Shown here: piece by piece, positions 31,461-35,992 of the stretch
Position numbering within the stretch: position 1 is the first letter of the stretch
How the letters are laid out: each line of letters begins with the position of its first letter
DNA from: Salinibacter sp. 10B
GTDB taxonomy: Bacteria > Bacteroidota > Rhodothermia > Rhodothermales > Salinibacteraceae
Reading direction: 5' to 3'
Assembly: GCF_002954405.1 (NCBI RefSeq)
Contig: NZ_MQWC01000004.1
Location: forward strand, 1,262,301-1,326,300
Length of the DNA: 64,000 nucleotides
The notes under the pieces: generated by a model
The model's database searches: none
Seen by the model: the letters and a program-made list of their open reading frames with translations, nothing else
What the model was told of the DNA's origin: nothing
Program-made: the position numbers and the translations under genes

Positions 31461-32804
31461 CTAGGAGACCGGCTGCATGGAGGAGGCCTCCTCGGCCCGT
31501 TCCGTAAACTGCCCTCCCGCAAACCGGACCAGCATAATCCACGCAATGAGCACGACGATACTCGCCACCGACAGCCAACGGGCCCCCGCTGCCCCAACGA
31601 AGGCTGCAAACGCCAGGTTTAGCCCCACGGCGACCACCTTCGCGAAGCGCTGGACAAACATATCGATAAACGCCTTTCCCTTGTACTTCGCGTCCCGGGA
31701 CGTGGGCGTATACAAGGCTTCCTTGGCTGACTGGTTAATCGAGTAATTCAGGCTGTTGTCCGACACAGACATGAAGACCGCAGCCCCGAGGAACGGCACG
31801 GCAAGGTACGCAACAGATCCCATCAAGATGGCCACGGGAAGAAACAGAAGGGCCGTTCCGATGCCGAATCGCTTCATCACGAAGCTCGTCAGAAAGAGCT
31901 GTACCCCAACGGAGACCACGTTCGTCAACACGCCCACAAATCCGAACGCAGCGTCGTAATTCACCCCGCTGGCCACTGCCATCTCAATGGCCTTTGCCAG
32001 CTGATAGTCGACAATGTTGGAGACAATCTCGTACAGGCCGATGATGCCCAAAATCGCCAGTAGGTACTTCGACTGAAAGACGATTTTGGCCCCTTCAAAC
32101 ACTGCACTTGTGGAGGCCACTTCCGTCCCCGCGTCCGGCGCTTCCTGATTAGAGACGCCCCCTTCCCGACGATTGACGTAGTAAGCAATGCCCGCGACGG
32201 CCACGATGGCGAGTGCGGCCCCCCAGAGGAGCGACTGTCGTCCCAGCACGTCGACACGAGTGCTCACGTACGTCGCCCCCACGAGTCCTCCCAGTACGCC
32301 GCCCAACCCAATGAGCCCGTAGAGCCGCTTCGACTGCTGTGGCCGAATTACGTCGTTCGTGAAGGCCCAGAAGGACGCGACCATAATTGAATTGAAGATG
32401 TCACCGAAGACGTAGAACCCCCAGACGGTGGGGGCGTCGAGGTCAGTAATTGCAAAAGAGAATATGATCGTCCCGGCCGTCAGCAAAGCACAAAAGATGT
32501 AGACCACCTGCTGGCGCTTGAAGCGTCGCACCAGAATCGTGAAGAGCACCACCACGCCGTACACCACGATCATGTTGAGGGTCTTCCCCACCTGTTCCGC
32601 CTCGGCTCCCCCAAAGGCCTCGATGTAAAAGCCGAACAGCCGAAACGCCCGGTCGTCGTAGAACGTGAGCATCAGTCCCCGCTTGATCGGCTTAAACACC
32701 CAGAAGACGGCGATCACCAGAAAGAAAAAGAACGACAGCGCGAGGGCCGTCGGCCACTCCTCGCGCCGGATGTCAAAAAATTCGTCTTTCAGGCGGTCAA
32801 GCAT
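31461..32804 (-). CDS. NTP/NDP (ADP/ATP translocase, TLC family) exchanger-like membrane transporter
   Basis: This 447-residue protein has about 11-12 membrane helices. The N-terminal half (FWVFKPIKRGLMLTF, then AEAEQVGKTLNMIVVYGVV and FTILVRRFKRQQVVYIF) follows the pattern of the TLC family of nucleotide exchangers, best known from Rickettsia, Chlamydia and plastids. Free-living relatives occur in Bacteroidota/Rhodothermota and have untested substrates. Extra features are an acidic cytoplasmic loop near residue 225 and MFVQRFAKVVAVGLNLAF before the last helices. It begins 42 bp after the stop of the kinase-fold lipoprotein gene and likely shares its transcript. A general MFS carrier is the main alternative. 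Confidence 0.7.
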   Translation of the reverse strand: MLDRLKDEFFDIRREEWPTALALSFFFFLVIAVFWVFKPIKRGLMLTFYDDRAFRLFGFYIEAFGGAEAEQVGKTLNMIVVYGVVVLFTILVRRFKRQQVVYIFCALLTAGTIIFSFAITDLDAPTVWGFYVFGDIFNSIMVASFWAFTNDVIRPQQSKRLYGLIGLGGVLGGLVGATYVSTRVDVLGRQSLLWGAALAIVAVAGIAYYVNRREGGVSNQEAPDAGTEVASTSAVFEGAKIVFQSKYLLAILGIIGLYEIVSNIVDYQLAKAIEMAVASGVNYDAAFGFVGVLTNVVSVGVQLFLTSFVMKRFGIGTALLFLPVAILMGSVAYLAVPFLGAAVFMSVSDNSLNYSINQSAKEALYTPTSRDAKYKGKAFIDMFVQRFAKVVAVGLNLAFAAFVGAAGARWLSVASIVVLIAWIMLVRFAGGQFTERAEEASSMQPVS

Positions 32805-32846
32805 GGGGCCCTATTCGGAAAATGAAAAAATTATCGGCACGGACGC

Positions 32847-34628: not shown

Positions 34629-34636
34629 GAGCGTTC

Positions 34637-35992
34637 CTATCGTCTCGTGCCAATCGCGAAACTGGACCCGGTCTTGGAAAACACGCGGACACCGCTGGTG
34701 CTTACTCCGACATCGAGGCGGAGCGACACCCCCGACCCGGCATAGACGCGCACCCCCATCCCGGCGGACCATCGGAAGTCGGCCGGTGCAATTTCACCGA
34801 CCTCATCAAACGCTTGCCCACTATCCACGAAGAGAAGCGCGTCCCACGTTTTCCAGATTGGATACCGGTACTCGAGCGTGAACAGCACCGTGCCATCCCC
34901 ACGCAGCCGATTTTGCTCGGCCCCACGCAACAGGTCCGCGCTGCCCAGCACCGGCAGCTTGTAGAAGGGTACAGCCGCCCCCGGCACGGGAAACAACTGC
35001 TCCAGTCGCGTACGGAATACGAGCCGTCGGTACGGCCCAAAAACCGGAAGCGGGACGATCCGCTGCCACTCCCCGAGAAGACGGTGATAACTGAGCGGGG
35101 TGTCGTTGAGGCTGTGTGTAAAGTCATAGGAGAGATAAAACCGTCTGCCCGAAAGGGTGCGCGGCCGGCCGTCTCGTCCTCCTCGGATTTGTTCGACCAG
35201 GAGCGATGCCCCCGTCGACACGAGCGTGGTACGCCCCACCCCTGGCAGCGACACGGGAAAGCGGGATGCCCCTCTACCCTCGCCCCGCCCCACATCGATG
35301 CGCTCATACCGCGCAAAGAGCCCCCAGCCAAGCCCCGAGAGGCCTCCCCGTTGACGAGGGTTGGCCCCAATCCCCAGCCGCAGATCAACCTGTTCTGTGC
35401 GATAACTGGTCTCCCGCTGGTTGGATGCAAGTCCCGGAAATCCGAGGTCAGACGTCAGGAACAGATTCTCGTCAGAATCGAGGCGGTACGTTGTCGCCAC
35501 GTCGATGAATGAGGCCTCCCCGAACGGAGCAGGATTTGTGTAGAATGCGTCGGCTCGGAGGTTGTCCGGCGTGCTGTACAGAACACGTGCTTCTGCCTCG
35601 CGCCTCGTGCCGAAAAGCTGCTCGTGGCGGACCGTAAGGCCGATGGCCCCCGACGTGGCCCCCCCGAGCCGAGCCGTCGGAAAGACGCCGAACGTTCGGG
35701 CGTCATTCCAAAAGAAGTCTTCTACCCGAGACGGAATCTCGTTGCGCTCGGCCCAGATGACGCCCCACCCGATTGGACGCGTGGTCCAGTGCAGAAGGGT
35801 CGACGGCACGGCGAGAATTTTTTCGGCGGTCGACTGCTCCGTAACGTATACGGTGCGCGTATGGGTAGAATCCACCTGGACCCTCGCATGCTGCGCTCCC
35901 TGCGCCGACGCCCCCATGCCGGGCAGCAATGTCATCGCGAGTGCGACTGCAAGCCCTCGAATGACCAATTTACTGGATCTCCCAGAAAACAT
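34637..35992 (-). CDS. Omp85/BamA-family outer-membrane barrel protein
   Basis: This is 451 residues. A signal peptide (LAVALAMTLLPGMGASAQ) is followed by a periplasmic stretch of about 80 residues without a clear POTRA, then a long beta-barrel of alternating Tyr/Arg/Gly strands. The conserved Omp85 lid motif appears as LLRGAEQNRLRG near residue 365, followed by LEYRYPIW and FVDSGQAF. The size and motif fit the 'surface antigen' (BamA/TamA-like) family. It probably inserts in the outer membrane and may translocate or anchor a partner. It is the first gene of an apparent operon with the kinase-fold lipoprotein and the transporter. Confidence 0.82.
   Translation of the reverse strand: MFSGRSSKLVIRGLAVALAMTLLPGMGASAQGAQHARVQVDSTHTRTVYVTEQSTAEKILAVPSTLLHWTTRPIGWGVIWAERNEIPSRVEDFFWNDARTFGVFPTARLGGATSGAIGLTVRHEQLFGTRREAEARVLYSTPDNLRADAFYTNPAPFGEASFIDVATTYRLDSDENLFLTSDLGFPGLASNQRETSYRTEQVDLRLGIGANPRQRGGLSGLGWGLFARYERIDVGRGEGRGASRFPVSLPGVGRTTLVSTGASLLVEQIRGGRDGRPRTLSGRRFYLSYDFTHSLNDTPLSYHRLLGEWQRIVPLPVFGPYRRLVFRTRLEQLFPVPGAAVPFYKLPVLGSADLLRGAEQNRLRGDGTVLFTLEYRYPIWKTWDALLFVDSGQAFDEVGEIAPADFRWSAGMGVRVYAGSGVSLRLDVGVSTSGVRVFSKTGSSFAIGTRR

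Follow-up and report, generated by a model that had tools for sequence, protein, structure and literature searches.

ATP is assumed to be absent from the periplasm, and ATP-dependent enzymes in this compartment are a puzzle. Among the NTTs that have been characterised, most serve to bring ATP into parasites or plastids. For AtNTT1 it has been shown that K155 and K527 are needed for the binding of ADP and ATP, and that E245 is important for translocation (PMC3306366). A survey from 2017 listed the NTTs found in free-living bacteria, NTT-HEAT fusions included; it describes nucleotide import by the NTTs of Chlamydia, Rickettsia and Microsporidia, and states that the role of the free-living members is unknown (PMC5381601). 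Kinases acting outside the cytosol have been described in other systems. In eukaryotes, Fam20 is accompanied by the ER exchanger AXER/SLC35B1, which exchanges ATP for ADP across the membrane and thereby brings in ATP (PMC7948968, PMC6113206), and in bacteria the CotH spore-coat kinases act on an outer spore structure (PMC7821199). No paper tying NTTs to a kinase-like lipoprotein or to a barrel was found in a literature search of incomplete coverage, and a search for periplasmic kinases with an ATP supply yielded nothing relevant, an absence that proves little because subscription journals are poorly covered.

The DNA analyzed here, called the window, is a stretch of 64,000 nucleotides from Salinibacter sp. 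10B. It contains a minus-strand triad that consists of a barrel gene (OMP), a lipoprotein gene (LIPO) and a transporter gene (NTT), in this order (Table 1). The gaps are 8 bp between OMP and LIPO (34629-34636) and 42 bp between LIPO and NTT (32805-32846), so that the open reading frames agree with the three genes, positions and distances given in a first-pass annotation of this DNA. A longer LIPO reading frame starting at 34772 was rejected, because it merely extends into the barrel gene, while the start at 34628 yields a signal peptide and a lipobox. Each of the three genes has essentially one full-length match in the source genome; LIPO is a single-copy gene, and for NTT a single distant paralogue exists, inside an open frame of 1025 aa at G000:C4:907399. 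A scan for promoters and terminators gave matches no more frequent than in shuffled sequences. Downstream of the triad, a minus-strand gene (28879-31107) encodes a patatin-like phospholipase followed by a POTRA-like segment and an Omp85_2 barrel, an architecture resembling type Vd secretion. It was ruled out as a fourth member, because no such gene recurs at other clustered loci.

Table 1. Features of the triad in the window and of phosphoesterase genes at related loci (residue numbers refer to LIPO)
Feature	Position	Strand	Description
OMP	34637..35992	-	Omp85-superfamily outer-membrane barrel, 451 aa; Pfam Omp85, model, VIA-align
LIPO	32847..34628	-	lipoprotein, 593 aa; lipobox LGGC at Cys23; atypical kinase-like domain and C-terminal beta-sandwich
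LIPO kinase-like domain	33264..34250	-	residues about 127-455; predicted fold match and residue conservation
LIPO C-terminal beta-sandwich (fibronectin-III-like)	32850..33263	-	residues about 456-593; VIA-align, weak assignment
NTT	31461..32804	-	TLC-family (ATP/ADP translocase-like) inner-membrane transporter, 447 aa; Pfam TLC and profile against PDB
Lys165 in YLFKFD	codon 34134-34136	-	end of strand 161-165
Glu179, alpha-C acid	helix 174-188	-	model secondary structure
Asp295, catalytic (predicted)	codon 33744-33746	-	NDAD(295)RRAAN(300), loop between helix 284-290 and strand 301-305
Asn300	codon 33729-33731	-	same loop as Asp295, helix 284-290 to strand 301-305
Asp317, DMG	codon 33678-33680	-	just after strand 311-315
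Metallophosphoesterase lipoprotein after LIPO	L042 8667-9830; L045 6568-7707; L047 6349-7515; L092 6833-8527		

We consider it somewhat probable that the triad is an extracytoplasmic phosphotransfer module, in which a kinase is fed with ATP by its own exchanger. NTT, in the inner membrane, would swap cytoplasmic ATP for ADP and thus deliver ATP to the periplasm. The lipid-anchored LIPO would spend this ATP for the phosphorylation of an envelope substrate, and the barrel, as the constant partner of LIPO, could be a scaffold, an exit route or a substrate-presenting pore. Phosphate transfer by LIPO, outward carriage of ATP by NTT, binding between LIPO and the barrel, and the identity of the substrate are the steps that we infer. 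A counterpoint is that outward ATP transport would reverse the usual use of NTTs.

The AlphaFold model of LIPO, built with 34 sequences, has a pLDDT of 90 and a pTM of 0.90. In VIA-align its best 38 matches are exclusively kinases of the CtkA/Fam20/PI4K/CotH/HipA group (Z 14.8-8.5), in agreement with a two-lobed kinase fold. They include CtkA with a Z of 14.8 over 230 residues (3.8 A), Fam20 (13.4), PI4KII (12.7), CotH (12.1), HipT (11.1) and HipA (9.9). The first matches that are not kinases have a Z of about 8 and cover the separate C-terminal beta-sandwich, which resembles FN3/monobody domains (Z 7.8-8.4), a common fold and hence a weak assignment. Foldseek likewise put HipT, Fam20 (the Golgi casein kinase) and PI4KII at the top, yet with E values of only about 1e-3, and against a viral structure library it returned phage kinase-like and other large proteins, from which no identification was gained. 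The kinase fold that the first-pass annotation had proposed for the lipoprotein is therefore upheld; the limits of 138-325 given for it were too narrow, since the domain spans residues 127-455, approximately, in the structural alignment.

Sequence comparisons place LIPO in none of the known families. Pfam and NCBIfam contain no family for LIPO and none that matches its 33 relatives reproducibly, and phmmer and profile searches of the PDB sequences gave chance matches only. The resemblance to Fam20 is structural only, as the PDB and Pfam searches returned no match to this family. The CotH family (PF08757) matched neither in Pfam nor by profile (hhalign probability 0.2%), and comparison of the NTT and barrel profiles with the LIPO profile gave nothing. 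The HipA_C profile (PF07804) has no match in any of the 34 LIPO relatives, and the LIPO profile aligns only weakly with a profile of Rhodothermota HipA proteins (hhalign probability 9%, P 0.0036), although the sole aligned stretch puts K165 and E179 on the equivalent HipA strand and helix in the right register. Because of the missing HipA_C match and this faint profile trace, LIPO was not filed as a member of the HipA family. A kinase-like fold of the atypical kinase type, with an active site, is nevertheless strongly supported by the model, and catalysis by LIPO is predicted.

The conservation of the active site was analyzed with a 34-row alignment and further loci, together 96 LIPO loci after removal of duplicates. 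K165, D295, N300 and D317 are all kept at 83 of the 96; the remainder comprises 11 loci without the set, one frameshifted gene, and one Myxococcota copy in which N300 is replaced by Gln. The set is conserved across Rhodothermota, Calditrichota, KSB1, Zixibacteria and Myxococcota, in homologues with as little as about 30% identity, and this is the pattern expected of an enzyme. Conservation of the lysine and the aspartates in homologues had been set beforehand as a test, and it was found everywhere except in one degenerate branch. Among the landmarks that had been named, Lys165, Asn300 and Asp317 are conserved, and Glu179 is the alpha-C acid in Rhodothermota, while Asp, His, Ala or other residues occupy its position elsewhere. 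Asp293 did not hold as the catalytic aspartate, because its position varies in homologues (S, H, Q, N), whereas Asp295 is retained at every locus outside the degenerate branch. Within the 34-row alignment, the 30 intact members all carry the lipobox cysteine, and the four degenerate ones lack it. LIPO is predicted to be anchored by an N-terminal lipid, probably in the outer membrane.

A kinase-like fold could also serve another ATP-dependent chemistry. The kinase-fold enzymes SelO and SidJ, which catalyze AMPylation and glutamylation, respectively, are known (cited in PMC7948968), and hydrolysis of ATP by LIPO could power assembly or export linked to the barrel. A BamA/TamA-type partner would suit such an ATP-driven step at the outer membrane, with NTT energising the periplasm. 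However, the Lys/Asp/Asn/Asp set occupies the canonical positions of phosphotransferring kinases with their spacing, N300 lying at +5 and D317 at +22 from D295, and we regard another chemistry as unlikely in comparison with phosphate transfer.

For the two partners of LIPO, the assignments of the first-pass annotation were confirmed. The transporter is a member of the TLC/NTT family, as had been suggested: it matches Pfam TLC (PF03219) with 73.1 bits at a curated cut-off of 21, the single sequence matches the solved ATP/ADP carrier NTT1 (9j3n, 9j3j) with an E value of 3e-16, and a profile of 21 NTT relatives matches the two structures with 2e-39 and 8e-35. E245, E385 and K527 of AtNTT1 would correspond to D135, D266 and K389, conservative matches in charge, and K155 would lie one column off K74; this holds if the 9j3j chain is renumbered to AtNTT1 with a uniform shift of 84, which rests on four residue identities that match at once. 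D135, D266, K389 and K74 are each present in 18 of the 21 relatives, and ATP/ADP exchange is the predicted activity. The barrel, annotated before as Omp85-like, matches Pfam Omp85 (PF01103) with 53.4 bits at a cut-off of 24. Its AF2 model (34 relatives, mean pLDDT 85) comprises a signal peptide, a helical N-terminal segment (residues 55-94) and 16 strands, and BamA and TamA barrels are matched in VIA-align with Z values of 27-24, the best being 26.9 for BamA and 25.7 for TamA. POTRA domains are absent from the model; about 70 partly helical residues separate the signal peptide from the barrel. The motifs LRGF...RFRD, of the RGF type, and EYRYP are conserved. OMP is thus modelled as a 16-strand barrel of the BamA/TamA type that lacks POTRA domains.

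The degenerate branch was found in the genus and the family to which the genome of the window belongs. Here K165 is replaced by L, W, R or V and D295 by K, G, A, S or M, and N300 is lost. In a tree of 93 sequences the branch is monophyletic (SH-aLRT 100), and its sister group comprises three intact sequences with an adjacent NTT. In this branch, which belongs to Rhodothermota, a barrel is present at 10 of 10 loci and an NTT within 5 kb at 0 of 10, compared to 21 of 22 intact loci with an NTT at this distance (Fisher 1.7e-7, with shared descent ignored). The catalytic residues and the NTT were lost in one evolutionary event, a single independent pair on the tree, and therefore this correlation counts once and not repeatedly. 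Degenerate paralogues with their own upstream barrel and without an NTT nearby were observed at L049 (6826-8496), L051, L052, L053, L093-L096 and L115. By its residues, the degenerate LIPO together with its barrel is a candidate for a secreted pseudokinase-barrel pair.

In Balneolaceae, LIPO is followed at three loci, after 7-18 bp, by a gene for a calcineurin-like phosphoesterase (PF00149) that carries a lipoprotein signal, and such a lipoprotein is also encoded in the neighbourhood of LIPO at three further loci. The presence of a phosphatase next to a predicted kinase would be in keeping with reversible phosphorylation, a clean-up of nucleotides, or salvage. Nucleotide salvage would mean that the barrel admits external nucleotides, that LIPO binds or processes them, and that NTT imports ATP or other nucleotides. 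The direction of transport would then be that of the NTTs of Chlamydia, Rickettsia and Microsporidia, as given in PMC5381601. Salvage is also favoured by the phosphoesterase lipoproteins, relatives of which are encoded near NTTs without a nearby LIPO as well (L097, L102). However, barrels of the Omp85 type insert proteins or lipids or act as secretion pores and are not solute porins, a binding protein has no need of a conserved catalytic Asp/Asn/Asp set, and the degenerate LIPO branch has retained the barrel in the absence of an NTT. Salvage thus appears improbable, and the phosphotransfer module remains our preferred reading.

Relatives of LIPO occur in Rhodothermota, Balneolaceae among them, as well as on contigs labelled Calditrichota, KSB1, Zixibacteria and Deltaproteobacteria/Myxococcota. 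It had been asked whether the three genes stay together in other Rhodothermota, and they do: at the intact-kinase loci of this phylum with enough flanking sequence a barrel is present in 22 of 22 and an NTT within 5 kb in 21 of 22. A TLC gene is present in 28 of the 29 genomes with an intact LIPO, in contrast to 9 of the 189 others (218 genomes of the class; Fisher 2e-26, again ignoring shared descent), and in none of the six genomes that contain only a degenerate LIPO. In Myxococcota a barrel was found at 19 of 27 loci and an NTT nearby at 11 of 27; in Calditrichota, KSB1 and others the respective values are 14/14 and 4/14. A TLC gene is encoded somewhere in 16 of 17 of these non-Rhodothermota genomes, and the 17th has NTT-like genes according to BLAST. 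Dozens of loci, distributed over several phyla, carry the barrel-lipoprotein pair, in most cases together with a TLC gene, which is more than chance. Myxococcota contain LIPO homologues in 57 of 192 genomes, with up to seven copies each (L129-L146, G629, G529, G653), and for some copies neither a barrel nor an NTT was detected nearby. A KSB1 contig has a tandem arrangement of barrel-LIPO-barrel-LIPO-NTT (L023, 1429-9113). In a frameshift-like manner, a short NTT is split into frames of 205 and 336 aa (L042, 17654-19154, genome G081) and a LIPO gene into two frames (L092, 5151-6855, genome G418); both might be due to sequencing errors or decay.

The NTT gene is located downstream in the window and its relatives, but upstream in many Balneolaceae, and the encoded protein is short, an NTT-HEAT fusion, or both are present in series. 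Because position and form vary by clade, and the label "NTT adjacent" requires 17 changes on the tree, the association must have been broken and re-made several times. That LIPO and the barrel form one unit, to which NTT is linked only by a shared regulon or as a hitchhiking gene, would agree with the greater constancy of the barrel-LIPO pair in Calditrichota and KSB1, but is very unlikely in view of the near-perfect co-occurrence in the genomes of Rhodothermota and of the re-joining in different positions and two forms by a gene family that few genomes of the class contain (37 of 218). A functional tie between LIPO and NTT is strongly supported in Rhodothermota and moderately elsewhere.

The family represented by LIPO is conserved, spans at least five phyla and lacks a Pfam or NCBIfam model; its members are predicted to be envelope kinases and have a barrel partner and, in Rhodothermota almost without exception, a nucleotide exchanger. 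Speaking against the phosphotransfer module are the Foldseek E value, the weak HipA profile match, and the looser linkage of NTT outside Rhodothermota. The first-pass annotation had proposed a possible extracytoplasmic nucleotide-dependent modification system, perhaps acting on surface proteins or lipids through the barrel. Three results had been named beforehand as capable of overturning this proposal, a lipoprotein model without a kinase fold, Lys and Asp residues that are not conserved, and a transporter that belongs to a different MFS family and lacks conserved linkage, and on all three points the outcome was in its favour. If the module is real, so is ATP-dependent chemistry in the periplasm, and the role of many NTTs of free-living bacteria would be explained; should the ATP supply be confirmed, the triad would stand as a bacterial envelope system of a new kind. 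With such a conserved operon, in which an exchanger is coupled to a predicted envelope kinase, three genes are enough to address the questions of periplasmic ATP and of NTTs in free-living bacteria.

Each part of the triad belongs to a known superfamily. OMP shares with the Omp85 barrels of BamA and TamA the 16 strands and the LRGF..RFRD motif, but has an N-terminal helical segment instead of POTRA domains, and it is paired with LIPO. The LIPO-adjacent transporters belong to the same family as the NTTs of free-living bacteria and include NTT-HEAT fusions followed by a cNMP-binding protein, an arrangement described for NTT-HEAT loci, while a link to a barrel or a kinase-like lipoprotein, as seen here beside LIPO, is not mentioned in the available part of that work (PMC5381601). 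Small cyclic-nucleotide-binding proteins after an NTT-HEAT fusion were observed at L103 (11574-12071), L092 (15289-15723), L104 (2020-2457) and L031 (12015-12455); PF00027 was matched in L103, and the other three are BLAST relatives. With HipA, HipT and CtkA (HipA superfamily, PF07804 and relatives), LIPO shares the kinase-like fold and the order of Lys, alpha-C acid, D-x4-N catalytic loop and D-x-G. However, it is a lipoprotein in which the kinase-like domain is extended by an N-terminal region and a C-terminal beta-sandwich, it has no Pfam match, and its operon contains a barrel and an NTT instead of an antitoxin. CotH is a bacterial kinase acting on an outer structure of the spore and is matched in fold, but it has no sequence match to LIPO, and a barrel or NTT partner has not been reported for it. 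In principle, the proposed organization is that of Fam20 with AXER, a non-cytosolic kinase with a membrane ATP/ADP exchanger. The pseudokinase paralogue Fam20A has a possible equivalent in the degenerate LIPO branch. The eukaryotic system differs in that its exchanger belongs to the SLC35 family, no barrel is involved, and no sequence relationship to LIPO is detectable. Tentatively, and with slightly more doubt than conviction, the triad may be viewed as the bacterial analogue of a principle known from the ER and Golgi, the combination of an ATP exchanger with a secretory kinase; here a new family of outer-membrane-anchored kinases, bound to POTRA-less Omp85 barrels and supplied with ATP by dedicated NTTs, would phosphorylate proteins, lipids or glycans of the envelope or the surface.
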